The notes below the pieces were generated by a model. It was not told where the DNA came from. It did no database searches and saw nothing but the letters and a program-made list of their open reading frames with translations. Shown here piece after piece: positions 5,825 through 21,303 of a DNA stretch of 29,114 bases; position 1 is the stretch's first letter; each line of letters begins with the position of its first letter. Made by a program: the position numbers and the translations under genes. Source of the DNA: Rhodospirillaceae bacterium (GTDB taxonomy: Bacteria > Pseudomonadota > Alphaproteobacteria > Puniceispirillales > Puniceispirillaceae); NCBI GenBank assembly GCA_002731315.1, contig PCBG01000002.1:83449-112562 (forward strand), written 5' to 3'.

Positions 5825-6575
5825 CTATGGTGCGTCACTGCCGATCTGTTCCTTGCAACGGGCGATAGAGGCCTGCATTTCCTCGACCCAGCCGGAATCC
5901 GTCGGTGACGGTTCATATGCGTCAAGTATCTGAGGCTACAATGTCATGGCACGTTCCGTCGCGGTGCGGGCGCCGGCATCACGCCAATTCTTGTTGTTTG
6001 AACAGTCCGACAGGAACGAGCTATGAAAGGCGGTTTTGTAGCGTTCCATTGTATTTGCAGTGCCAAAGAAATGCAGGACGTTAAAAACTCTGACCAAGCT
6101 TGATCAGCTTTTGATAGACGGCAAAATTGCCAGTGCGCCGGCCGCCACGAATGTCATGCGCATTCGGCGTCCCTGATACCATGCCAAAATGGATATGATC
6201 GCCACCAATGGTAAGGGCGCGGTGCGGGTTTGTTGGGGTCAGTTGGAATTTGTCTGGGGCGACGGAGAGGGCATCCATGATCAATCCGCGATCCGCGCGC
6301 ACGATCATTGTACTGTTATTGACCTCTGCTCCGGCTGGCTGGAAAATGGCCCGTGTATGGCCACTCATCACCTCAATTCCATATTCCTCGAGAAGGCGTA
6401 GAGAAGCGTTGTGGACAGCCTCTAGATGGTCAGTGCTGAGCGTTGTAAGTGGCGGCATGTGATTCTTCACATCCTGCCAGTCGATCTGCCATCCAGTGCA
6501 TATGGCAGGCAATGCGCCAGATTCGGAGTCCCGCCGCCGCCGGCTTTCAGAACGACTTGCCGTGCGAGCAGTCAT
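5825..6575 (-). pseudogene. mttB: Decayed mttB-family trimethylamine/quaternary-amine methyltransferase gene
   Basis: The first 164 codons (6575 down to 6084) read as the N-terminus of an alphaproteobacterial MttB-family protein: an Arg-rich leader, LSTDHLEAVHNASLRLLEE, then APDKFQLTPTNPHRALTIGG and RRTGNFAVYQKLIKLGQSF. The frame then hits TAA at 6083-6081, inside a run of five T (minus strand). Dropping one T restores the family continuation SFNVLHFFG. The sequence next jumps straight to a recognisable MttB C-terminus (TMERYKTAF, WRDAGARTATERA), so roughly 260-280 codons of the catalytic barrel are missing near 6060. A TAG at 5938-5936 replaces the expected tryptophan, and the tail (ILDAYEP ... 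EEMQASIARCKEQIG) continues in frame to a stop at 5825. An intact relative is about 500 residues. No product can be functional. No corrinoid protein gene is adjacent. Confidence 0.88.
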
Positions 6576-6800: not shown

Positions 6801-7718
6801 ATGCCGATGAACATGAACCGTAATGTTTTCATTACCTGCGCTGTTACCGGGTCCGGTGACACCACCGGAAAGTCGGACAAGGTGCCAGTGACGCCGGAAG
6901 AGATTGCAGATTCGGCGATTGATGCGGCAAAGGCAGGGGCAGCGGTTGTACATTGCCATGCACGCAATCCTGAAACAGGCGCCCCGTCGCGCGACGTGGA
7001 ATTGTTCCGCGAAGTGACAGAGCGCATTCGTGATGCCGAGATTGATGTGGTTTTGAACCTGACAGCCGGCATGGGCGGAGACCTTGTCCTTGGCGGTGTG
7101 GAAACGCCGTTGCCGCCGGACGCAACCGGCACGGACATGGCGGGCGCCAGTGAAAGGCTGAGGCATATCACCGATTGCCTTCCCGAACTCTGCACACTGG
7201 ATTGCGGCACGATGAATTTCGGTCATGGAGAATACATCATGACCAACAGCACCGCGATGCTTGTCGAAATGGCGACACAGATGAAGGCGCTTGGCGTGAA
7301 GCCCGAGATAGAGGTCTTTGACACTGGGCATCTGTGGTTTGCCAGACACCTGGTAGATAAGGGCCACATAGACATGCCGGCGCTGGTGCAGCTTTGTATG
7401 GGAATCCCTTGGGGTGCACCGGATGACCTGAACACGTTGATGGCGATGGTCAATAATATTCCCGAAGACTGGGTCTTTTCCGCCTTTTCCATTGGTCGTA
7501 ATGCGATGGCCTATCCTGCGGCCGCGATTCTGGCGGGCGGCAATGTGCGTGTGGGCCTAGAAGATAATATCTATGTGTCACGCGGGGTGTTCGCAACCAA
7601 CGCACAACTTGTTGAACGCGCAGTGAATGTGATCGAAAACATGGGTGCGTCCGTCATTGGCCCAGACGCTGTGCGCAGCCAACTTGGCCTGACCAAATGC
7701 GCGCCGGTCGCGCGCTAG
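6801..7718 (+). CDS. Beta-keto acid cleavage enzyme (BKACE, DUF849), probable 3-dehydrocarnitine cleavage enzyme
   Basis: A 305-residue metal-dependent enzyme of the 3-keto-5-aminohexanoate cleavage family. The family condenses a beta-keto acid with acetyl-CoA and splits it to acetoacetate plus a new CoA thioester. The Zn-binding pair His51/His53 is visible in VVHCHARNPETG, with the catalytic-site Glu254 in RVGLEDN. Other family motifs are NVFITCAVTGSGD at the N-terminus and LDCGTMNFG near residue 133. The start at 6801 has an ideal AAGGAGG 6 bases upstream; the longer frame from 6741 adds nothing family-like. The gene is followed 12 bases later by the carnitine dehydrogenase-thioesterase fusion. 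By established pathway knowledge, that pairing marks the BKACE as acting on 3-dehydrocarnitine, giving betainyl-CoA and acetoacetate. The substrate is inferred from this context. Confidence 0.92.
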   Translation: MPMNMNRNVFITCAVTGSGDTTGKSDKVPVTPEEIADSAIDAAKAGAAVVHCHARNPETGAPSRDVELFREVTERIRDAEIDVVLNLTAGMGGDLVLGGVETPLPPDATGTDMAGASERLRHITDCLPELCTLDCGTMNFGHGEYIMTNSTAMLVEMATQMKALGVKPEIEVFDTGHLWFARHLVDKGHIDMPALVQLCMGIPWGAPDDLNTLMAMVNNIPEDWVFSAFSIGRNAMAYPAAAILAGGNVRVGLEDNIYVSRGVFATNAQLVERAVNVIENMGASVIGPDAVRSQLGLTKCAPVAR

Positions 7719-7730
7719 GGGGCATATTCT

Positions 7731-9236
7731 ATGCAGAATGAGACAGACAGATCTGCCCGTAAGCCGCGCCTTGCGGCAGTTGTTGGCGGCGGGGTCATTG
7801 GCGGCGGCTGGGTCGCCCGGCTGATCCAGAATGGCATCAATGTGCAGGTTTTCGACCCCGACCCAGAGGCACCGCGCAAAATTGAAGCGGTCATGGCCAA
7901 TGCCGATCACGCCATCGCTAAGCTGACCATGGCACCGATGCCGACCCCCGGCCGCCTGCGCTTTGCCACGAGCATTGCTGATGCGGTAGCCTCCGCCGAA
8001 CTGATTGTCGAGGCAGTGCCTGAACGCCTGGAGGTCAAGCATGCGGTCTATGCCGAAATCGAGGCCGGTGCCAAGCCCGATGCCATCATAAGCTCGTCGA
8101 CATCCGGCATCATGCCGACCGATCTTCAGGCGGGGATGAGGCATCCCGAACGACTGCTTGTCGGCCATCCCTTCAACCCAGTCTATCTACTGCCACTTGT
8201 CGAGCTTGTCGGGGGCAAAACAACAGATGCGGGCACGATTACGCGCGCTGGCGTATATTTTACCAGCATCGGCATGCATCCGCTGCCCCTTGCCAAGGAA
8301 ATTGAAGCCTTTGTGGCAGACCGATTCCTTGAGGCGGTATGGCGCGAGGCGCTATGGCTGGTCAAAGACGGCATTGCCACAACTGAAGAAATAGATGATG
8401 CCATCCGTTTTGGGTTTGGCCTGCGCTGGGCGCAGATGGGGCTGTTCGAGACTTATCGCGTAGCGGGCGGCGAGGCTGGCATGGCGCATTTTATCGCGCA
8501 ATTCGGCCCCTGCCTGAAGTGGCCCTGGACCAAACTGATGGATGTGCCGGAGCTAACCGACGAGCTGGTGCAGACCATTTCTAACCAGTCTGATGCGCAG
8601 TCGGGCATGCATTCTATCCGAGAGCTTGAGCGCATCCGCGACGACAATCTTGTCGCCATCATGCAGGCGCTGAAGTCAAATGACTGGGGCGCCGGGCGCA
8701 CCCTTTCGGCCTGGGAGACCGCGCTTTACGAAGCGGTGGCGGCGGCCACCAACAGCAAAAATATCAATCAGCCGATCGAGACCATGCGCCAGCAGGTGCC
8801 TGCGGCCTGGACCGATTATAACGGCCATATGAACGAAGCCCGCTATCTCGACTGTTTCTCGATAGCCACCGACGCGATGATGCGTCTTATAGGCGTTGAT
8901 GCCGATTATCTTGCCGCAGGCAGCAGCTATTTTACAGTCGAGACCCACATCCGCCATCTGGATGAGGTGACGGCCGGCAATGAAATCTATGCCACCTCGC
9001 AGCTTTTGAGGGGTGAAGGCAAGAAAATGCAGCTCTTTCATCATCTCTACGCGGCAGATGCTGAGGGGGAATACCGCTTGCTGGCCACCGGCGAGCATAT
9101 GCTGATCCATGTCGACATGAGCAGCCGTTCATCCAGCCTGCCGTCCGATGCTGTGGCAGCAAAACTGGCAGAGCTGGCAGCTGCCCATGAAAAGTTGCCC
9201 CGCCCCGAAGGCGCCGGCCGCGCCATCGGCGGCTGA
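7731..9236 (+). CDS. lcdH: L-carnitine dehydrogenase fused to betainyl-CoA thioesterase
   Basis: A 501-residue two-domain enzyme. Residues 1 to about 330 form a 3-hydroxyacyl-CoA dehydrogenase-type NAD domain: Rossmann motif VVGGGVIGGGW at 17-27, SSSTSGIMPTDLQ, and catalytic His146 in VGHPFNPVYLLPLVEL. This matches L-carnitine dehydrogenase, which oxidises carnitine to 3-dehydrocarnitine with NAD+. From about residue 345 a hot-dog (4HBT) thioesterase domain follows: WTDYNGHMNEARYLDCF, then GSSYFTVETHIRHLDEV and LLATGEHMLIHVD. The fusion of these two domains next to a BKACE gene is known for carnitine degraders; there the thioesterase releases glycine betaine from betainyl-CoA. The start at 7731 has AGGGGG upstream. 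It lies 12 bases after the BKACE gene and 15 bases before the acyl-CoA dehydrogenase gene, so they are one operon. Confidence 0.93.
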   Translation: MQNETDRSARKPRLAAVVGGGVIGGGWVARLIQNGINVQVFDPDPEAPRKIEAVMANADHAIAKLTMAPMPTPGRLRFATSIADAVASAELIVEAVPERLEVKHAVYAEIEAGAKPDAIISSSTSGIMPTDLQAGMRHPERLLVGHPFNPVYLLPLVELVGGKTTDAGTITRAGVYFTSIGMHPLPLAKEIEAFVADRFLEAVWREALWLVKDGIATTEEIDDAIRFGFGLRWAQMGLFETYRVAGGEAGMAHFIAQFGPCLKWPWTKLMDVPELTDELVQTISNQSDAQSGMHSIRELERIRDDNLVAIMQALKSNDWGAGRTLSAWETALYEAVAAATNSKNINQPIETMRQQVPAAWTDYNGHMNEARYLDCFSIATDAMMRLIGVDADYLAAGSSYFTVETHIRHLDEVTAGNEIYATSQLLRGEGKKMQLFHHLYAADAEGEYRLLATGEHMLIHVDMSSRSSSLPSDAVAAKLAELAAAHEKLPRPEGAGRAIGG

Positions 9237-9251
9237 AGGAGGAGAAACCCG

Positions 9252-10412
9252 ATGCAGTTCGGATTGACCGAAGAACAGGAAATGATCGTTTCAACGGTCC
9301 GCAGCTTTGTCGAAACCGAGATTTATCCGCATGAGGATAAGGTCGAGGCGCTTGGCCATGTGCCGAAAGAGCTTGGCGAAGAGATCAAAGCTAAGGTTCT
9401 GGAGATGGGATTCTATGCCTCGAATTTTCCCGACAATTTTGGTGGCGGCGGCCTAAACAATCTGGAATTCGCCCTTCTGGAGCGTGAGCTTGGTCGCGGA
9501 TCAATGGCGCTGACGCATTTCTTTGGACGCCCGCAGAACATCCTAATGGCCTGCGATGGCGAACAGGTTGAGCGCTATCTCATGCCGGCTATAAGCGGCG
9601 AGAAGATGGACGCGCTGGCAATGACCGAACCGGACGCCGGATCGGATGTCCGCGGCATGAACACCACGGCACGGCGCAATGGCGGGGATTGGGTGCTAAA
9701 CGGAACCAAACATTTCATCTCTGGCGGCACGCATGCTGATTTCTTTATCGTCTTCGTTGCTACCGGCGTCGATGACACGCCGCACGGCCCAAAAAAGCGG
9801 ATCACATGTTTCCTTGTCGATCGCGGTCATCCCGGATTCGAGGTGTTGCCGGGATACAACTCAGTCTCGCATGCCGGCTATGACAATGTGATCCTGAAAT
9901 TCGATTCGTGCCGTCTTTCTAACGATCAGGTGCTTGGCAAGGTTGATGGTGGTTTTGAGGTGATGAATACATGGCTCTATGCCACCCGAATAACCGTTGC
10001 CACCATGTGTGTTGGCCGGGCGCGTCGCGCCTTTGACTATGCCCTGAATTACGCGACTGACCGCAGGCAGTTTGGCAAGCAGATCGGCAAGTTTCAGGGG
10101 GTAAGCTTCAAGCTTGCCGACATGATCACGGCAATCGATGCTGCCGACTGGCTGACCCTATCCGCAGCATGGCGGCTGGATCAGGGATTGCCGGCGAACC
10201 GCGAGATTGCCTCTGCAAAGCTTTATGCGTCCGAGATGCTGGCGCGCGTCACCGACGAGGCTATTCAGGTCTATGGCGGAATGGGGTTGATGGATGATCT
10301 TCCTTTGGCGCGGTTCTGGCGCGACGCGCGGGTTGAGCGAATCTGGGATGGCACTTCGGAAATCCAGCGGCATATCATCAGCCGCGATCTTTTGCGCCCG
10401 CTCGGTGGATAA
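9252..10412 (+). CDS. Acyl-CoA dehydrogenase, probable gamma-butyrobetainyl-CoA/crotonobetainyl-CoA oxidoreductase
   Basis: A 386-residue FAD enzyme of the acyl-CoA dehydrogenase family. It shows the helical N-terminal domain, the FAD/substrate signature MTEPDAGSDVRGMNTTA and NGTKHFISGG. Next come the electron-transfer and C-terminal domain segments DRRQFGKQIGKFQGVSFKLADM and IQVYGGMGLMDDLPLARFWRD. At the position usually holding the catalytic glutamate (the EGT motif) it has Asp366 (RIWDGTSEIQR). The alternative glutamate position used by isovaleryl-CoA dehydrogenases appears to be Thr. The neighbouring ADP-forming ligase and CaiD-like hydratase suggest that it desaturates gamma-butyrobetainyl-CoA to crotonobetainyl-CoA, with electrons going to ETF. 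The start at 9252 has AGGAGGAG upstream; the stop lies one base before the next ATG. Confidence 0.9.
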   Translation: MQFGLTEEQEMIVSTVRSFVETEIYPHEDKVEALGHVPKELGEEIKAKVLEMGFYASNFPDNFGGGGLNNLEFALLERELGRGSMALTHFFGRPQNILMACDGEQVERYLMPAISGEKMDALAMTEPDAGSDVRGMNTTARRNGGDWVLNGTKHFISGGTHADFFIVFVATGVDDTPHGPKKRITCFLVDRGHPGFEVLPGYNSVSHAGYDNVILKFDSCRLSNDQVLGKVDGGFEVMNTWLYATRITVATMCVGRARRAFDYALNYATDRRQFGKQIGKFQGVSFKLADMITAIDAADWLTLSAAWRLDQGLPANREIASAKLYASEMLARVTDEAIQVYGGMGLMDDLPLARFWRDARVERIWDGTSEIQRHIISRDLLRPLGG

Positions 10413-10413
10413 A

Positions 10414-12456
10414 ATGGACGAGCTATCGCGTCTGTTCCGCCCACAGTCTATTGCCGTATTTGGCGGATGGTGGGCGGAAAATGTTATTGAACAATGTCTC
10501 AAGGCGGACTTTAAAGGGGATATCTGGCCAGTCCATCCGAAACGCGCCGCTATTCACGGCATCCCCTGTTTCCGCAACCTTACGGATCTCCCTTCGGCTC
10601 CAGATGCCGCCTTTCTCGGGATCAACCGGCATGCGGTGGTCGAGGTAACAGCAGATCTGGCAGCCATGGGCTGCGGCGGGGCTGTGTGTTTCGCCTCCGG
10701 ATTCGCCGAGACAGGTGATGATGACTTGCAACAGCAGCTTGTTACGGCGGCGGGAGACATGCCGCTTCTAGGGCCAAACTGCTATGGCGTGCTGAACTAT
10801 CTGGACGGGGCGATGCTCTGGCCTGACCAGCATGGCGGGCGCGCTGTTGATCGCGGCGTCGCCATCATCAGCCAGTCCTCGAACATCGCAATCAATATAT
10901 CGATGCAGGCGCGCGGCCTTCCCATCGCCTATATGGCGTGTGTTGGCAACCAGGCGCAGACAAGCCTTTCCGATATGGCGCGCAGCCTGTTGGCCGATCC
11001 CCGCGTGACCGCCGCCGGCCTCCATGTCGAGGGCATCATTGATGCTAGTGATTTTGCCGCGATGGTTGCAGATGCCGCCGCCGCCGGTAAGAGCATCGTT
11101 GCCATCAAGGCAGGAAAGACCAAAGCAGCGCGCGATGCCGCCAGTTCGCACACTGCAGCATTGGCAGGAGACGGTGCAGCATCCTCGGCCTTTCTGGCGC
11201 GTTGCGGCGTGATTGAAGCCGCCTCGCCGGAAGAAATGATGGAGGTTCTAAAGATCCTGCATCTCTTTGGAAGGTTACCCGACAGCCGGCTCACGGCGAT
11301 GTGCTGTTCAGGGGGTGAGGCCGGCCTGACCGCTGATCTGGCAGGTGACAGACAACTCGACTGGCCAGCGATACCGGAAGACAACCGCGCGCGCCTTGCC
11401 GAGACGCTTGGCCCGCTGGTGGCGCTGGCAAACCCGCTCGACTATCACACGTTTATCTGGGGTGATGAGGCTAAAATGACCGACACTTTCGCTGCGATGA
11501 TGGGCGACTGGGTCGATCTGTCTATTCTGGTCATCGATTTTCCGCGCAGCGATCGATGCGACGATGGAGCGTGGCACCCGGCGGTTGCGGCTATGAAGCG
11601 TGCCGGCGAGATCAGCAGTGCCAGAGTAGCGATGCTTGGCAGTCTGGCCGAGGGTCTGTCCGAATCCTGGGCTATCAGCCTGATCGATCAAGGGATCCTC
11701 CCGCTTTGTGGATTGGAGCATGGGCTTCGCGCGATTGAACTTGCCGCACAGCCTGCCCCGCTATTTGGCTGGCAGCCACACAGCGGCAGCGTGCTGCCTG
11801 GCAGTCGTCATCTTTTAGACGAGGCTACAGCAAAGGCGATGCTGTCCGACGCCGGCTTGCCGGTGCCGCGCGGCGCAACCGCCGCGACACCATCAGATCT
11901 TGCAGAGGCCGCTTCCGGGCTGGCCGCACCTCTGGTGCTTAAAGGCCTTGGCCATCCGCACAAAAGCGAAGCTGGCCTTGTCCGTCTCGGGCTGACACAT
12001 GAGGCGCTGACAGGGGCGGCTGTGGCCATGGAAATGGCAAAGGGGTTTCTGGTTGAGGAAATGGCCCAGACGCCCGCCGCCGAATTGTTGGTCGGGTTGC
12101 GTCGGGACCCGGTCTATGGCGTCAGCCTGACAGTCGGTATAGGCGGGGTGGCAGCCGAGCTTCTTTGCGATGTTGCAACGCTGATCCTACCAGCTGAAAA
12201 GAACGACATACGCGCTGCGCTAAACGAGTTGCGGCTGGCACCGATTCTGACCGGCTATCGCAGACGGCCTGCAGCGGACATCGATGCCGCGGTGGATGCT
12301 ATTGCACAATTGTGCCGGCTAATCGAAACATCACCTGTCATCGACGAAATCGAGGTCAATCCGCTGATGTTGGCGCAGGCTGGTAGCGGTGTGCTGGCCC
12401 TTGACGCGGTGATATGGAACACTGCGCCAATACCGCAAGAGGAGGACGTATCATGA
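10414..12456 (+). CDS. Acyl-CoA synthetase, ADP-forming (CoA-binding, succinyl-CoA-ligase-like and ATP-grasp domains)
   Basis: A 680-residue single-chain NDP-forming acyl-CoA ligase. The N-terminal CoA-binding domain opens with LFRPQSIAVFGG. The succinyl-CoA-ligase-like middle shows GPNCYGVLNY (120-129), IISQSSNIAI and the phospho-histidine loop SHTAALAG with His246. The C-terminal ATP-grasp domain begins near residue 470 (LDEATAKAMLSDAGLPVPRG; APLVLKGLGHPHKSEAG) and ends EIEVNPLM. The reaction is acid + CoA + ATP to acyl-CoA + ADP + Pi, and it is reversible. In this operon it would activate gamma-butyrobetaine, crotonobetaine or carnitine, in place of the AMP-forming CaiC ligase or the CaiB CoA-transferase of enteric bacteria. 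The start at 10414 is taken just after the preceding stop; its ribosome binding site is weak, so coupling is likely. It overlaps the next gene by 4 bases. Confidence 0.9.
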   Translation: MDELSRLFRPQSIAVFGGWWAENVIEQCLKADFKGDIWPVHPKRAAIHGIPCFRNLTDLPSAPDAAFLGINRHAVVEVTADLAAMGCGGAVCFASGFAETGDDDLQQQLVTAAGDMPLLGPNCYGVLNYLDGAMLWPDQHGGRAVDRGVAIISQSSNIAINISMQARGLPIAYMACVGNQAQTSLSDMARSLLADPRVTAAGLHVEGIIDASDFAAMVADAAAAGKSIVAIKAGKTKAARDAASSHTAALAGDGAASSAFLARCGVIEAASPEEMMEVLKILHLFGRLPDSRLTAMCCSGGEAGLTADLAGDRQLDWPAIPEDNRARLAETLGPLVALANPLDYHTFIWGDEAKMTDTFAAMMGDWVDLSILVIDFPRSDRCDDGAWHPAVAAMKRAGEISSARVAMLGSLAEGLSESWAISLIDQGILPLCGLEHGLRAIELAAQPAPLFGWQPHSGSVLPGSRHLLDEATAKAMLSDAGLPVPRGATAATPSDLAEAASGLAAPLVLKGLGHPHKSEAGLVRLGLTHEALTGAAVAMEMAKGFLVEEMAQTPAAELLVGLRRDPVYGVSLTVGIGGVAAELLCDVATLILPAEKNDIRAALNELRLAPILTGYRRRPAADIDAAVDAIAQLCRLIETSPVIDEIEVNPLMLAQAGSGVLALDAVIWNTAPIPQEEDVS

Positions 12457-13244
12457 CCGACAGCGATGTAATCCAGACCCGTACCGAGGGCCATATCTTC
12501 GAGGTGAAACTCGACAGGCCAAAGGCAAATGCCATTGATCTTGTTACGTCACAGCGCATGGGCGCAACCTTCAAATCCTTTCGAGACAACCCGGATCTCC
12601 GTGTCTGTATTGTCCGCACCGCTGGCGAGAAATTCTTCTCCGCAGGCTGGGACCTGAAAGCAGCGGCGGCCGGGGACTCGGTGGTCGGCGACTATGGCGT
12701 CGGCGGCTTTGCAGGGCTGCAGGAATTACGCGATCTAAACAAACCGGTAATCGCCGCGGTAGAGGGCATGTGCGTCGGCGGAGGGTTCGAACTGGCGCTG
12801 TCCTGCGATATGATTCTGGCGACTGAAGCCTCGAGTTTTGCGCTGCCAGAAATCCGTGCCGGCACATTGGCTGATGCGGCAACCATCAAGCTGCCAAAGC
12901 GGATCCCCTATCATGTGGCCATAGATATGCTGTTTACCGGCCGCTGGATGGGTTGCACCGAAGCGCACCGGTGGGGGCTGGTGAACGAGGTGATGTCAGA
13001 TGGTGCGACACTTTATGAGCGGGCGTGGGAACTGGCACGGCTCCTGGCATCGGGCCCACCTCTGGTCTTTGCTGCAATCAAGGAGGTGGCGCGCGAGGCT
13101 GAGGCGGTGAAATTTCAAGACGCCATGAACCGGGTCACAAAGATGCAACTGCCCACTGTTGATACGCTGTATCATTCGGAAGACGGCCAGGAAGGATTTC
13201 GTGCCTTTGCCGAAAAGCGTGATCCAGTCTGGAAAGGGCGCTAG
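12453..13244 (+). CDS. caiD: Enoyl-CoA hydratase/isomerase, CaiD-like (crotonobetainyl-CoA hydratase)
   Basis: A 263-residue crotonase-fold protein. The stretch FFSAGWDLKAAAAG (61-74), followed by YGVGGFAGLQEL, is very close to what I recall of carnitinyl-CoA dehydratase CaiD, where FSAGWDLKAAA and GGFAGL are characteristic. The oxyanion-hole and catalytic region is intact: Glu113 in GGGFELALSCD and Glu133 in FALPEIRAG correspond to the two glutamates of enoyl-CoA hydratases. TGRWMGCTEAHRWGLVNEV follows as in the family. It should interconvert crotonobetainyl-CoA and carnitinyl-CoA. The start at 12453 overlaps the upstream stop (ATGA) and has GAGGAGG before it. It is the last plus-strand gene of the carnitine operon and converges with the ldh-family gene with only 13 bases between stops. 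Confidence 0.9.
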   Translation: MTDSDVIQTRTEGHIFEVKLDRPKANAIDLVTSQRMGATFKSFRDNPDLRVCIVRTAGEKFFSAGWDLKAAAAGDSVVGDYGVGGFAGLQELRDLNKPVIAAVEGMCVGGGFELALSCDMILATEASSFALPEIRAGTLADAATIKLPKRIPYHVAIDMLFTGRWMGCTEAHRWGLVNEVMSDGATLYERAWELARLLASGPPLVFAAIKEVAREAEAVKFQDAMNRVTKMQLPTVDTLYHSEDGQEGFRAFAEKRDPVWKGR

Positions 13245-13257
13245 CTAATCATCCAGT

Positions 13258-14253
13258 TCAGTTCAGGTCGCGAATAGTTGTGACCAGTGCTTCATTGATA
13301 TTACGCGGTCCGGTATCCAGCCTGTTCTTATGACGGCGCGCGCCCGGGATGCGCATGCCTTCAATACTGGACATGCGGTCCATGAATGCCTCGACATGAT
13401 CTTCCCAGCCATCGCCGGCAATCAGCGCTGGTGAGAGGCCGATGATCATCTCGCCACCCCGCGGCGGGCCGCCATCACCATTATCATTCGCCTTGGCTTC
13501 ATAGCTGAATTGCTCACCAGTCAGGCCAGCTGCCAGCAACTCGACCATCAGGGCAATTGCCGACCCCTTATAGCCACCGAAAGGCAGCAGGACGCCAGCC
13601 GCAATTTTTCCTGGATCGGTAGTTTCATTGCCACCAGCATCAAGTCCTGTGCCAAGTGGCACCGACTTGCCATCACGCGCCGCGATCTGAATGTCACCCA
13701 TCGCCATCGCGGCCGTGGCCATGTCATAGCAGACCGGCGAGTTGCCAGGGCGTGGCCAGGCGAAGGAAATTGGGTTCGTTCCAAAAAGCTTTTCACGCGT
13801 GCCGGACGGGGCAACCATGGGCATATAGGCCGTACAGGCAATACCAACGAGGCCACGGTCCGCCAGAAACTCTGTCTCAGGCCACAACGCAGCGAAATGA
13901 TGGACACCCGTCAAGGACAAGGCGGCAACACCAATCTCTGACGTTGCCTCGGCAAGTACCGGCAGGCCGACTGACTGCGCCAGCGGCGCAAAGCAGCCAT
14001 GCCCATCGACATGCACAACCGCCGGGGTTTTTTTTGTAACGGTCGGCTTTGCCTTCCCGTCCACCTTGCCGCTGCGCAGTGCCTTGACATATCCAGGCAC
14101 GCGAAACAGCCCGTGCGAGTGTGACCCGTCGCGTTCGGCGCGCATCACGATATCGGCCAGTGCAGCGGCGTTGGCCTCATCGCAGCCATTGGCTGTCATA
14201 GTGTCATGAGCCAGCGCATAGATCTCGTCGAGTGACATGGTGACAGTGGACAT
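13258..14253 (-). CDS. Malate/L-lactate dehydrogenase (Ldh2) family NAD(P)-dependent oxidoreductase
   Basis: A 331-residue protein of the Ldh2/YlbC/DpkA family, which reduces 2-oxo or cyclic imino acids (malate, lactate, ureidoglycolate, sulfolactate, piperideine-2-carboxylate). The catalytic motif RDGSHSHGLFRVPGYV (41-56) is intact, with GVHHFAALWPETEFL, FGTNPISFAWPRP, the DMATAAMAMGDI segment and the LPFGGYKGSAIALMVELLAAGL segment that lines the active site. The start at 14253 has a perfect AGGAGGT 8 bases upstream. It lies 12 bases downstream of the class II aldolase gene, so the two form one minus-strand unit. Because relatives act on many substrates, the reaction cannot be fixed. A ureidoglycolate dehydrogenase role (purine genes lie 10 kb away) is possible but unsupported by direct linkage. 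Confidence 0.88.
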   Translation of the reverse strand: MSTVTMSLDEIYALAHDTMTANGCDEANAAALADIVMRAERDGSHSHGLFRVPGYVKALRSGKVDGKAKPTVTKKTPAVVHVDGHGCFAPLAQSVGLPVLAEATSEIGVAALSLTGVHHFAALWPETEFLADRGLVGIACTAYMPMVAPSGTREKLFGTNPISFAWPRPGNSPVCYDMATAAMAMGDIQIAARDGKSVPLGTGLDAGGNETTDPGKIAAGVLLPFGGYKGSAIALMVELLAAGLTGEQFSYEAKANDNGDGGPPRGGEMIIGLSPALIAGDGWEDHVEAFMDRMSSIEGMRIPGARRHKNRLDTGPRNINEALVTTIRDLN

Positions 14254-14265
14254 TGCATCTACCTC

Positions 14266-15000
14266 CTAGTGCCGGTATTCCGGCTCTTCCTCATCAAGAA
14301 TGGCGCGAATGGCAACCAGGTGCTGCGCGTGTGCAGCATCATAGCGTTCCCATTGCCTTGCCGTTTTTTCTGCAACTTCATTGCTTAACAGTGACAGTTC
14401 CTGCCCGGTGGACAAGGCTGTAATATAGGTGCGACAGCCGCGTTCATAGTGATAGGCAAGGTCAAAGGCCAGCGCCGGTGTGTCAGCCACGGTCATATAG
14501 CCGTGATTACCCATCATCATCATCTGCTTGTTGCCAAGAAGAGTGGACAGGCGTTCGGCCTCATCGCCAAGCCCCATACCGTCAAAACCGCTATCGATTG
14601 CCACGCGGTTATGGAACCTTGCTGTTGTCTGGTCCACGGCCGGCAACTCCGGTGACTTCAGTGTGCTGAGTGCCGTTGCATAATGCGAATGCAGATGCAC
14701 GATGCAACGCGCCTGAGGGTTGTTACGGTGCATCGCCCCATGGATGGCCCAGGCTGTAGGATCGATCCGTGCACGCAGCTCGTCCGACAGGTCACGGGCA
14801 TCAACCAGCACCATGTCGCTGGCTTTCAGCTTTGAGAAATGAATACCAAAGGGATTCATCAGAAATTGATGGCCGTCATTCGATACGGCACATGAAAAAT
14901 GATTGGCGATACCCTCATGCATGCCTTCGCGCGCTGTCCAGCGAAAAATCGCGGCGAGATCGCAGCGGACAACATCCACGTCAATCATGATATCGGTCAT
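14266..15000 (-). CDS. Class II aldolase/adducin-domain protein
   Basis: A 244-residue protein of the class II aldolase/adducin N-terminal domain family, whose members are divalent-metal aldolases, epimerases or decarboxylases acting on small sugars or hydroxyacids. The metal ligands are visible: His102 and His104 in CIVHLHSHYATALS, and His166 in GNHGYM. The substrate loop EGIANHFSCAV occupies residues 29-39. The frame is open up to 15507, but the start at 15000 is where family similarity begins, and AGGAGA lies 6 bases upstream; the extension overlaps a divergent gene. It sits in an operon with the Ldh2-type gene and is divergent from the betaine-aldehyde-type dehydrogenase. A typical pairing would be oxidation of a hydroxyacid followed by retro-aldol cleavage, but the substrate is unknown. 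Confidence 0.87.
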   Translation of the reverse strand: MTDIMIDVDVVRCDLAAIFRWTAREGMHEGIANHFSCAVSNDGHQFLMNPFGIHFSKLKASDMVLVDARDLSDELRARIDPTAWAIHGAMHRNNPQARCIVHLHSHYATALSTLKSPELPAVDQTTARFHNRVAIDSGFDGMGLGDEAERLSTLLGNKQMMMMGNHGYMTVADTPALAFDLAYHYERGCRTYITALSTGQELSLLSNEVAEKTARQWERYDAAHAQHLVAIRAILDEEEPEYRH

Positions 15001-15139
15001 CGCGGTCTCCTGCTCAAGTCTCCGCAAGACTGCCGCATTGGCGGGTTCAAAGGCAATGCAAAACTGCTGTTCAATTTTCATGGTTGCGCCATTCATGCCA
15101 GCGGAGTGAAATGGGGGAGAATGATGAAAGGATAACGTC
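15001..15139. promoter_or_regulatory. Divergent intergenic region (aldolase operon / aldehyde dehydrogenase)
   Basis: These 139 bases lie between two genes transcribed in opposite directions, so both promoters should be inside. The plus-strand side ends with AAAGGATAA, a usable ribosome binding site for ATG 15140; the minus side has AGGAGA before 15000. I found no clear -35/-10 boxes or long palindrome. Confidence 0.35.
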
Positions 15140-16570
15140 ATGGAGATCTGCAGATCGCTAGTCGGAGGCCGGCCGGTCGCCGGCGCAATGCCATCAATTG
15201 ACAAGAGATACCCGGCCACCGGCGAAGTGATTGCACGGATTGAGCCAGCGGACCAGACCGTCCTCGACCAGGCGGTTGAAGTGGCCGCCACCGCACAGAG
15301 TGAATGGGGTGCGCGTAGCGGCAGTGATCGCGCTGCCATCCTGCAGAAAGCAGCCGATGGTCTGCGCGCCCATAATAACGCCTTGTCACGCCTTGAGGTC
15401 CGTGATGTTGGCAAATCCTTTGCCGAGGCAGTATCCGCAGATGTACCAAGCGGGGCAGATGCCATGGCATTTTTTGCTTCCGTGGCGATGACCGAGGCTG
15501 GTGACATGCATCGCTATGCGGATGCCATTGCTTATTGTGAACGCGTGCCGCTTGGCGTCTGTGCCGGCATTGGTGCCTGGAATTACCCGGTCCAGATCGC
15601 CTGCTGGAAAGCGGCACCGGCGCTGGCTGCTGGCAATGCCTTCATCCTGAAACCATCAGAACTGACGCCGCTTACCGCGCATCTGGTTGCCGAGATTCTG
15701 GCTGATGCCGGCCTGCCGGATGGGCTGTTTCAGATCTTGCACGGAAATTACCAGATGGGGCGGGCTATCTGCGCCCATCCTGGGATTGCCAAGATTTCAC
15801 TGACGGGTGGGGTTGAGACTGGTCGTCTGATCATGACGCAATCAGCGGAAACTCTGAAAAAAGTCACACTAGAGCTTGGTGGAAAATCACCTCTTATTGT
15901 TTTTGCAGATGCCGATTTTGACCTGGCCGTAGAAACAGCGCTTGCCGCCAATTTCTATACGGCGGGCGAAGTATGTTCCAACGCCACGCGAGTATATGTT
16001 GAAGAGGCAATTGCTGTCGATTTCGAGGCGGCGCTGATTGAAGGCGCACGCGCCTTACGCGTGGGCGATCCGATGGCAGATGATGTGCAGATGGGTGCAT
16101 TGATTTCAGAACCGCACCTGAACAAGGTGCTGGACTATGTGGCTATCGGCACGGCCGAGGGGGCAAGGGTTGCCACTGGCGGCAAGCGCTTGCATCCACA
16201 GGGCTTCGAGTCGGGCTATTTCATGGAACCAACCATTCTGACACAGTGCCGTGATGACATGCGCGTTGTCCGTGAGGAAATTTTTGGACCAGTGATGTCG
16301 GTACTGACCTTCAGTGACGAACAGGATGCGATCACGCGGGCAAATGCCACCCATTTCGGCCTCGGGGCAGGGCTGATCACCCGCGATCTGACCCGCGCGC
16401 ACCGTGTCGCCGGACAGCTGGAAAGCGGTAATGTGTGGGTCAATACCTATAACCTGTTGCCGCCTGGCCTACCATTTGGTGGGATCAAGCAATCAGGCTT
16501 AGGGCGTGAAAACTGTGCTTACTCTCTGGATGCCTATAGTGAGATCAAGACCACTTATATCCAGCTTTGA
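15140..16570 (+). CDS. betB: Betaine-aldehyde / 4-trimethylaminobutyraldehyde dehydrogenase family protein
   Basis: A 476-residue NAD-dependent aldehyde dehydrogenase. The catalytic residues are present: Asn148 in GAWNYPVQIACWKAAPAL, Glu245 in TLELGGKSP and Cys279 in TAGEVCSNATRVYVE. The EVCSN-TRV context and IGAWNYP are typical of the betaine-aldehyde dehydrogenase (ALDH9/BetB) branch. The C-terminus NTYNLLPPGLPFGGIKQSGLGREN differs somewhat from enteric BetB. Beside a gamma-butyrobetaine/carnitine operon, the substrate could be betaine aldehyde (giving glycine betaine) or 4-trimethylaminobutyraldehyde (giving gamma-butyrobetaine). No choline dehydrogenase (betA) is next to it, which slightly favours the second reading. 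The start at 15140 has AAAGGATAA upstream. It is followed 30 bases later by an unrelated glycosyltransferase gene. Confidence 0.87.
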   Translation: MEICRSLVGGRPVAGAMPSIDKRYPATGEVIARIEPADQTVLDQAVEVAATAQSEWGARSGSDRAAILQKAADGLRAHNNALSRLEVRDVGKSFAEAVSADVPSGADAMAFFASVAMTEAGDMHRYADAIAYCERVPLGVCAGIGAWNYPVQIACWKAAPALAAGNAFILKPSELTPLTAHLVAEILADAGLPDGLFQILHGNYQMGRAICAHPGIAKISLTGGVETGRLIMTQSAETLKKVTLELGGKSPLIVFADADFDLAVETALAANFYTAGEVCSNATRVYVEEAIAVDFEAALIEGARALRVGDPMADDVQMGALISEPHLNKVLDYVAIGTAEGARVATGGKRLHPQGFESGYFMEPTILTQCRDDMRVVREEIFGPVMSVLTFSDEQDAITRANATHFGLGAGLITRDLTRAHRVAGQLESGNVWVNTYNLLPPGLPFGGIKQSGLGRENCAYSLDAYSEIKTTYIQL

Positions 16571-20229: not shown

Positions 20230-20313
20230 AACAAACTGCTTTTCTGGCTGCGCCCCAACGACTGATATTGTTGCGAACGGCCATGCCAGAGACGATTTCT
20301 GGGACTATTGGCC

Positions 20314-21303
20314 ATGAGTGCGCCTACAATCAAGTCACTTTTGCAGTATAACAGTGACGAGACCGCACAGAATATCGGTTTCCTTCTGCTGAATGAGTTT
20401 TCGTTGCTTGCCTTTGCATCGGCAATCGAACCACTGCGCTCGGCCAATCGGCAGAGCGGACGTCAATTGTATCAATGGGTCATTGCCAGCCCAGATGGAG
20501 GCCCAGCAGTGGCCAGCAATGGCGTCGAGGTGACGACCGATGGCAACCCCTCAGCGCTACAGGAATGTCGTATGGTTTTTGTCTGTGCTGGCGTCAATGT
20601 GCGCGAGAATACGCACCGTAATATTCTAAACCTTGTCCGCCGCTTGGACCGAAAGGGTGCCGTGATTGGGGCCATCTGTACCGGCACCTATGTGATGGCA
20701 GCTGCTGGTCTTCTTGATGACCGACGCTGCACTATCCACTGGGAAAACATTGACGGGTTAAGTGAAGAATTCCCGGAACTCGAAATTACTAATGATCTGT
20801 TCGAAGTGGATGGCACCCGTGTCACATGCTCGGGGGGTACCGCATCACTCGATATGATGCTTAACCTGATTGCACAGGCACACGGGGCCAACCTCGCAGC
20901 CGAGGTGTCGGACCAGTTTATTCATGACCGCATCCGCGAACCAACCGACCGGCAGCGGATGGAACTTCGCTCGCGCCTCGGTGTCAGCCATCCAAAATTG
21001 CTGGCGGTGGTGAAGACAATGGAAGACAATCTGGAAGAGCCGCTGGCGCAGACCGATGTTGCGCGCATGACAAACCTGTCGACCCGGCAGCTAGAACGCC
21101 TCTTCCGGAAGTACCTGAACACCACACCAACTCGTTATTACCTGAATTTGCGGCTTGCACGCGCGCGGCACTTACTGCGCCAAACATCAATGTCAATCCT
21201 GTCGGTTGCGCTTGCATGCGGGTTTGTGTCTGCGTCGCATTTCTCGAAATGCTATCGTGAGTGTTACGGCAGGACACCCCGAGCTGAGCGCGCACTGGGC
21301 TGA
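20314..21303 (+). CDS. GlxA-type AraC family regulator with DJ-1/GATase1-like domain, GbdR/CdhR-like
   Basis: A 329-residue transcription factor. Residues ~20-190 form a DJ-1/PfpI-like class I glutamine-amidotransferase domain (IGFLLLNEFSLLAFASAIEP; AVIGAICTGTYVMAAAGLLD; CTIHWENIDGLSEEFPEL; VTCSGGTASLDMMLNLIAQAHG). The C-terminal AraC helix-turn-helix pair occupies about 225-325 (TDVARMTNLSTRQLERLFRKYL; SVALACGFVSASHFSKCYRECYG). The DRRCTIHWENI and TCSGGTASLDMML signatures are those of GbdR and CdhR, which activate glycine betaine and carnitine catabolic genes in Pseudomonas; arginine regulator ArgR relatives share parts of them. The start at ATG 20314 is preferred over an upstream in-frame TTG at 20308. 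It stands alone, 7 kb from the carnitine operon, so control of that operon is inference. Confidence 0.9.
   Translation: MSAPTIKSLLQYNSDETAQNIGFLLLNEFSLLAFASAIEPLRSANRQSGRQLYQWVIASPDGGPAVASNGVEVTTDGNPSALQECRMVFVCAGVNVRENTHRNILNLVRRLDRKGAVIGAICTGTYVMAAAGLLDDRRCTIHWENIDGLSEEFPELEITNDLFEVDGTRVTCSGGTASLDMMLNLIAQAHGANLAAEVSDQFIHDRIREPTDRQRMELRSRLGVSHPKLLAVVKTMEDNLEEPLAQTDVARMTNLSTRQLERLFRKYLNTTPTRYYLNLRLARARHLLRQTSMSILSVALACGFVSASHFSKCYRECYGRTPRAERALG

Follow-up and report, generated by a model that had tools for sequence, protein, structure and literature searches.

Gene content and the proposed route

Does a single operon of a marine alphaproteobacterium encode the entire route from gamma-butyrobetaine to glycine betaine? 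The question is raised by five genes at positions 6801-13244 of a 29,114-nucleotide stretch (hereafter the window) of contig PCBG01000002.1, from the Rhodospirillaceae bacterium assembly GCA_002731315.1. In the original prediction these genes were read as an aerobic route that joins both halves of this conversion, with an activation enzyme other than that of the enteric cai system. We find no better interpretation of these genes than this route, and rhizobia have identical five-gene operons. We consider it highly probable that the operon is an aerobic pathway for the catabolism of gamma-butyrobetaine, crotonobetaine and carnitine in a SAR116 alphaproteobacterium, with every substrate assigned after the rhizobial pathway. 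The gene set of the operon, its families, order, conservation and key motifs are established.

All five genes lie on the plus strand and are intact. The first encodes a BKACE family enzyme of 305 amino acids (6801-7718; PF05853, 326 bits). It is followed by a fusion of carnitine 3-dehydrogenase with a 4HBT_2 thioesterase (501 amino acids, 7731-9236), which has 3HCDH_N, 3HCDH and 4HBT_2 domains and matched the NCBIfam carnitine 3-dehydrogenase model NF005716 at 765 bits, above the cut-off of 592. The third is an acyl-CoA dehydrogenase (386 amino acids, 9252-10412) with the N-terminal, middle and C-terminal Pfam domains, and the fourth a fused NDP(ADP)-forming acyl-CoA ligase (680 amino acids, 10414-12456) with CoA_binding_2, Succ_CoA_lig and ATP-grasp_5 domains. 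The last gene, 12453-13244, encodes a CaiD-like crotonobetainyl-CoA hydratase (263 amino acids from the ATG at 12453; ECH_1). Coordinates, gaps and Pfam and NCBIfam matches thus agreed with the five tightly packed genes originally described. Since only 12, 15 and 1 bases separate the first four genes and the fifth overlaps the fourth by 4 bases (ATGA), the genes are very likely transcribed as one unit.

In the proposed route, the NDP-forming ligase would convert gamma-butyrobetaine to gamma-butyrobetainyl-CoA, from which the acyl-CoA dehydrogenase would form crotonobetainyl-CoA and the hydratase, in turn, L-carnitinyl-CoA. Free carnitine would then be released from L-carnitinyl-CoA. The odds are about even that this occurs by reversal of the ADP-forming ligase, with the fused thioesterase as the alternative; release by the reversible ligase would make activation possible without net ATP cost. 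The dehydrogenase domain of the fusion would convert carnitine to 3-dehydrocarnitine, BKACE would turn 3-dehydrocarnitine and acetyl-CoA into acetoacetate and betainyl-CoA, and the thioesterase domain of the fusion would convert betainyl-CoA to glycine betaine.

Distribution and gene order in other genomes

When genome contigs were scanned with the ligase, 20 loci were detected, and the nearest relatives proved to be SAR116 assemblies. The closest locus (L001) was from such an assembly and encoded operon proteins 92-97% identical to those of the window. All five genes were present in 10 of the 20 loci, and L011 possessed four before it ended. Two loci (L005 and L008) start inside the dehydrogenase, L015 consisted of the ligase only, and six (L013 and L016-L020) were limited to the acyl-CoA dehydrogenase, ligase and hydratase. 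Four of these six were tested for a carnitine dehydrogenase elsewhere in the same genome (L013, L016, L017 and L019), and a full-length match outside the partial locus was found in each.

Plasmids of Rhizobium sp. Pop5 and SU303 carry all five genes with order and strand unchanged, and the annotations there include carnitine 3-dehydrogenase and carnitinyl-CoA dehydratase. A plasmid of Pseudorhodobacter turbinis carried the five genes in the same order, and two Granulosicoccaceae assemblies also had the same genes in this order. The Granulosicoccaceae were rejected as an identical case, because the dehydrogenase match ended at residue 342 (L012) or 349 (L014) and no fused thioesterase was matched. 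A Sinorhizobium numidicum plasmid was rejected as a full example. Its ligase and hydratase were good matches, but its BKACE and acyl-CoA dehydrogenase were only 30% and 26% identical, respectively, and carnitine dehydrogenase was unmatched in the plasmid stretch compared. Plasmids of Phaeobacter G2 and Paracoccus seriniphilus, which have BKACE and carnitine dehydrogenase, were set aside as well, their annotations showing neither ligase nor hydratase in the 10 kb to each side.

Linkage was also counted in 101 sampled genomes, all of the order to which the L002 genome (SAR116) belongs; their completeness is unstated and they are related to one another. At the thresholds applied, 41 genomes had carnitine dehydrogenase, 33 had the acyl-CoA dehydrogenase, 32 the ligase and 31 the hydratase. 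BKACE was above threshold in 45 genomes, 41 of which were counted as having the operon type; the linkage count excluded four genomes with weaker matches (45-46% identity), together with weaker second matches elsewhere. Each of the other genes is represented by one row per genome, the best, as a result of which the ligase row is a paralogue in G013, G017 and G021. All five families were present in 29 genomes, 22 of which have them in one unbroken run. The remaining seven appear to be split by contig ends, separate loci or paralogous ligases. The acyl-CoA dehydrogenase adjoined carnitine dehydrogenase in 29 of the 32 genomes that have both, and it adjoined the ligase in 28 of 32 genomes with both; its best match per genome was 67-93% identical to the window protein (33 genomes). 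Carnitine dehydrogenase matches in G025, G026 and G039, and several BKACE matches, contained one in-frame stop each.

The original prediction had suggested a gene-neighbourhood search for the five families together, and the search found them so placed in 10 loci, on the two Rhizobium plasmids, in Pseudorhodobacter and, as one run, in 22 of the 101 genomes. Chance association of the five genes was ruled out, since their linkage recurs across these lineages.

Conserved residues and nearest relatives

The BKACE of the window has 3c6c as its closest solved relative and possesses both HxH at 51-53 and GLED at 252, which we take to be the metal ligands. The hydratase is 51% identical to CaiD of Escherichia coli K-12 and has retained the two Glu positions in GGGFE and LPE, presumably the catalytic ones. 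In the acyl-CoA dehydrogenase, which is 29% identical to E. coli CaiA, the motif IWDGTSEIQ contains an Asp in place of the Glu found in 1ukw, a related solved enzyme. We assume that this is the position usually occupied by the catalytic base (Glu) of acyl-CoA dehydrogenases. Every one of the 20 aligned rows of operon or triad type, the window among them, has the Asp, as do the four aligned paralogues; E. coli CaiA has Gly there.

Two motifs of ADP-forming ligases, SHT (phosphohistidine) and HKSE, are retained in the ligase. In the ATP-dependent dimethylsulfoniopropionate (DMSP) lyase DddX, Glu432 is reported as required for cleavage (PMC8163506). At this place the window ligase has Cys (motif DRC); among 15 ligases of operon or triad type, 14 have Cys there and the other one has a gap. 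Three paralogous ligases have Asp or Asn there and no Cys. DddX Trp391 aligns to a His of the window ligase. Proteins encoded in the window were 71, 55, 72, 48 and 70% identical, in operon order, to those of Rhizobium sp. Pop5.

The route weighed against alternatives

Several findings weigh against the route from gamma-butyrobetaine to glycine betaine. The ligase, on which activation would depend, has the lowest identity of the five proteins to its Rhizobium counterpart (48%), and its closest solved relative is DddX (7cm9, 176 bits). The hydratase fitted the NCBIfam model of crotonobetainyl-CoA hydratase (NF002936) best but scored 294 bits, where the cut-off is 500, and the acyl-CoA dehydrogenase reached only 185 bits against a cut-off of 540 with the CaiA crotonobetainyl-CoA dehydrogenase model (NF002885). 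An operon-type acyl-CoA dehydrogenase was absent at threshold from 9 of the 41 genomes with carnitine dehydrogenase, of which at least one (G077) has its match close to the end of a contig. The reverse case, an operon-type acyl-CoA dehydrogenase without carnitine dehydrogenase, occurred in one genome. Family scans recognised no transporter gene among the window genes adjoining the operon. The family set alone leaves the substrate unfixed, because relatives also have a paralogous operon made up of these families, and the functions of the enzymes in this host are predictions.

The alternative that survives best is that the upper half (ligase, acyl-CoA dehydrogenase and hydratase) serves mainly the uptake or salvage of carnitine or crotonobetaine and not the use of gamma-butyrobetaine, the acyl-CoA dehydrogenase being perhaps dispensable or active on another acyl-CoA. 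The distance of this enzyme from CaiA would fit such a role. So would the nine genomes that have the lower half without an operon-type copy, which point to carnitine use independent of the acyl-CoA dehydrogenase, although contig ends may explain some of them. The linkage of the enzyme to both carnitine dehydrogenase and ligase, and its conservation across 33 genomes, argue the other way, and in a route for crotonobetaine only it would be superfluous. We judge this alternative improbable.

It is more doubtful still that the substrate of the operon is another betaine, perhaps a longer one (delta-valerobetaine or homocarnitine, for example), or a sulfonium analogue, for example gonyol. Homocarnitine does exist as a metabolite (PMC11773067), and relatives do have paralogous operons of the same families. 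However, the window dehydrogenase exceeds the carnitine 3-dehydrogenase cut-off and has its thioesterase fused, whereas the three paralogues scanned scored 300-317 bits with the L-carnitine dehydrogenase model, short of its cut-off of 414. We regard an operon for such compounds as very unlikely. Although SAR116 bacteria live among DMSP producers and no solved structure matches the ligase better than DddX, a DddX-type ATP-dependent lyase, in an operon for DMSP or another sulfonium compound, was rejected as hardly credible because Glu432 of DddX is not retained in the ligase (nor Trp391), while carnitine dehydrogenase and CaiD have no evident part in DMSP cleavage.

Comparison with known systems

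The gamma-butyrobetaine route, which we prefer, is not a new pathway, since it has already been described in Sinorhizobium meliloti. Bazire et al. (2019, J Bacteriol 201:e00772-18) reportedly characterised l-carnitine metabolism in that species as five enzymes catalysing seven steps from gamma-butyrobetaine to glycine betaine. The novelty that the original prediction implied for the combined route is therefore lost: the conversion is already known from root-nodule bacteria, and the SAR116 operon is a further example of it. The same five enzyme families occur in S. meliloti and in the window; our direct sequence comparison was with the Rhizobium plasmids. S. meliloti BcoAB has been used as a gamma-butyrobetaine:CoA ligase to make gamma-butyrobetainyl-CoA (PMC8364193), and SM2011_c01638 is credited with both carnitine oxidation and the conversion of betainyl-CoA to glycine betaine (PMC12482172). 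The systems differ in host, which is a SAR116-type marine bacterium in the case of the window. They also differ in surroundings: the Rhizobium plasmids have an ABC transporter and a divergent GlxA-type regulator beside the operon, and the window instead has a broken MTTB-family gene.

The enteric cai operon (caiTABCDE of E. coli K-12) shares with the window a CaiD-like hydratase and a member of the acyl-CoA dehydrogenase family. Unlike cai, the window operon would run in the oxidative direction and onward to glycine betaine, and its acyl-CoA dehydrogenase is only distantly related to CaiA. No blastp match (E <= 1e-3) to CaiB or CaiC was found among the five window operon proteins. These absences, with the CaiA and CaiD models below their cut-offs, led us to reject membership in the enteric cai operon, and they bear out the claim that a different enzyme performs the activation.

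In Pseudomonas aeruginosa the dehydrogenase and the thioesterase are separate proteins. Carnitine is converted there to 3-dehydrocarnitine, betainyl-CoA and glycine betaine by carnitine dehydrogenase, BKACE and, last, DhcAB (PMC12482172). Carnitine dehydrogenase and BKACE are thus common to P. aeruginosa and the window; a gamma-butyrobetaine half is not named in the excerpt of that paper. Carnitine dehydrogenase and BKACE also occur together in a marine alphaproteobacterium on an Arctic SAR11 island (PMC12421898). That island encodes a gamma-butyrobetaine dioxygenase (BBOX), and the available portion of the paper names no CoA-linked dehydrogenase, ligase or hydratase. No description of the route in SAR116 was found in the titles and abstract openings of 9 papers on SAR116 and carnitine and of the best 20 of 870 on Puniceispirillum-type names, carnitine, butyrobetaine and trimethylamine methyltransferase, which is weak evidence; the nearest paper was the one on SAR11 (PMC12421898).

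The upstream methyltransferase pseudogene

A feature overlooked by the original prediction lies between mmsA and BKACE and is divergent from the operon. It is a pseudogene of an MTTB-family (PF06253) corrinoid methyltransferase, present in two pieces at 5828-6575 on the minus strand. The N-terminal piece starts with an ATG at 6575. The N- and C-terminal pieces were 87% and 84% identical, respectively, to an intact copy of 521 amino acids in L001, and each matched PF06253 separately and not over its full length. Comparison with L001 showed that about 810 bp of the middle were lost at a short direct repeat, together with a frame change. Copies without internal stops were found, divergent and at the same place, in seven of the 20 loci (L001, L002, L003, L004, L006, L007 and L009). 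The methyltransferase match was absent from L010 and L011 in the upstream gap, which is only about 0.3-0.4 kb there.

A protein search with the methyltransferase gave mostly unnamed entries among the best 120 of 7994 proteins. In a separate comparison, MTTB groups in the 101 genomes were assigned by bit score among the matches listed, to which the counts that follow refer, with one partial gene (G064) included. The operon-linked subgroup was present in 31 genomes, of which 30 also had carnitine dehydrogenase; it was missing from 11 of the 41 genomes with carnitine dehydrogenase. The Fisher value of this association was 2e-15, which overstates independence because the sampled genomes are related and their completeness is unstated. 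The other MTTB group was more weakly associated with carnitine dehydrogenase (31 of 39 genomes, 2e-10). The operon-linked subgroup adjoined BKACE in only 5 of 30 genomes. Elsewhere it was found near betaine-aldehyde dehydrogenase (BADH) or aldolase genes (L039, L040, L042 and L044) or in other surroundings (L037, L038, L041 and L043).

Marine bacteria possess an MtgBCD-based demethylation of glycine betaine, as described in PMC12478193. The solved MtgB structure 9yce gave 311 bits with the operon-linked copy of L006 and 353 bits with a paralogue from the same genome (L045), the only pair compared; both are MtgB-like. The L045 paralogue adjoins an oxidoreductase with DAO and GCV_T domains. On a plasmid of Ruegeria conchae (L056, 668-9796), an acyl-CoA dehydrogenase, a ligase and a hydratase lie near an MTTB-family gene of a distant subgroup, whose product is at most 30% identical to the MTTB proteins of SAR116. 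An FAD oxidoreductase near the same genes is 36% identical to the L045 DAO and GCV_T protein.

A second, paralogous operon

Some relatives possess a paralogous cluster that consists of a second CaiD (CaiD2), a carnitine dehydrogenase-like protein without thioesterase, a second BKACE (BKACE2), a second acyl-CoA dehydrogenase and a second ligase. It was located at 4532-11743 of L047, 2205-10129 of L048 and 2681-9990 of L049, and in a fourth case it was split over two contigs (L050, 5945-8601, and L051, 1152-4408). The dehydrogenase-like protein has 311-319 amino acids in L047, L048 and L050 and a longer frame in L049. A GbdR-like regulator accompanied the second operon in three of the four cases (L047, L048 and L049). 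An OpuAC-type betaine ABC transporter adjoins it in L047, where a copy of the malate/lactate dehydrogenase-like gene Ldh2, 79% identical, is also adjacent.

As a tentative proposal, which we consider rather unlikely as a whole, the SAR116 route may be coupled to a dedicated cobalamin-dependent MTTB-family methyltransferase, distinct from the MtgB-like paralogue, that acts on gamma-butyrobetaine, carnitine or the resulting glycine betaine. In the same proposal the second operon would degrade a homologous betaine or sulfonium osmolyte (homocarnitine or delta-valerobetaine, or gonyol) by the same chemistry. Searches on gonyol, valerobetaine and BKACE found no bacterial operon of this kind among the titles and abstract openings of the best 10 of 83 papers.

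Flanking genes

Several relatives share the order of the flanking genes (mmsA, Ldh2, class II aldolase, BADH, GbdR-like regulator and mutase genes), but some of these genes are missing from some of the relatives. The Ldh2 gene and the class II aldolase-like gene adjoin the operon on the minus strand (13258-15057), and both were present in 10 of the 20 loci (L001-L010). Downstream, a BADH-like gene at 15140-16570 on the plus strand matched NF009725 at 645 bits (cut-off 593) and TIGR01804 at 588 bits (cut-off 669). It adds betaine context, and its place in the route is only putative. The GbdR-like AraC/GATase1 regulator, at 20308-21303 on the plus strand, is not adjacent to the operon. It scored 416 bits with NF052371 against a cut-off of 480 and is retained in L004, L006 and L009, and it is a possible candidate regulator of betaine genes.

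Significance for SAR116

SAR116 bacteria are abundant in surface seawater. The complete CoA-linked route lies as one run in about one fifth of the order sample (22 of 101 genomes). This suggests a genuine nutrient role in that habitat for gamma-butyrobetaine and carnitine, which would supply the glycine betaine pool by a route other than the oxygenase of Arctic SAR11. The pathway itself is ordinary; the value of the operon lies in the ecological record. Two further leads, the methyltransferase linked to the operon and the second, paralogous operon, may help to show what becomes of betaines, and possibly of sulfonium osmolytes, in the sea.

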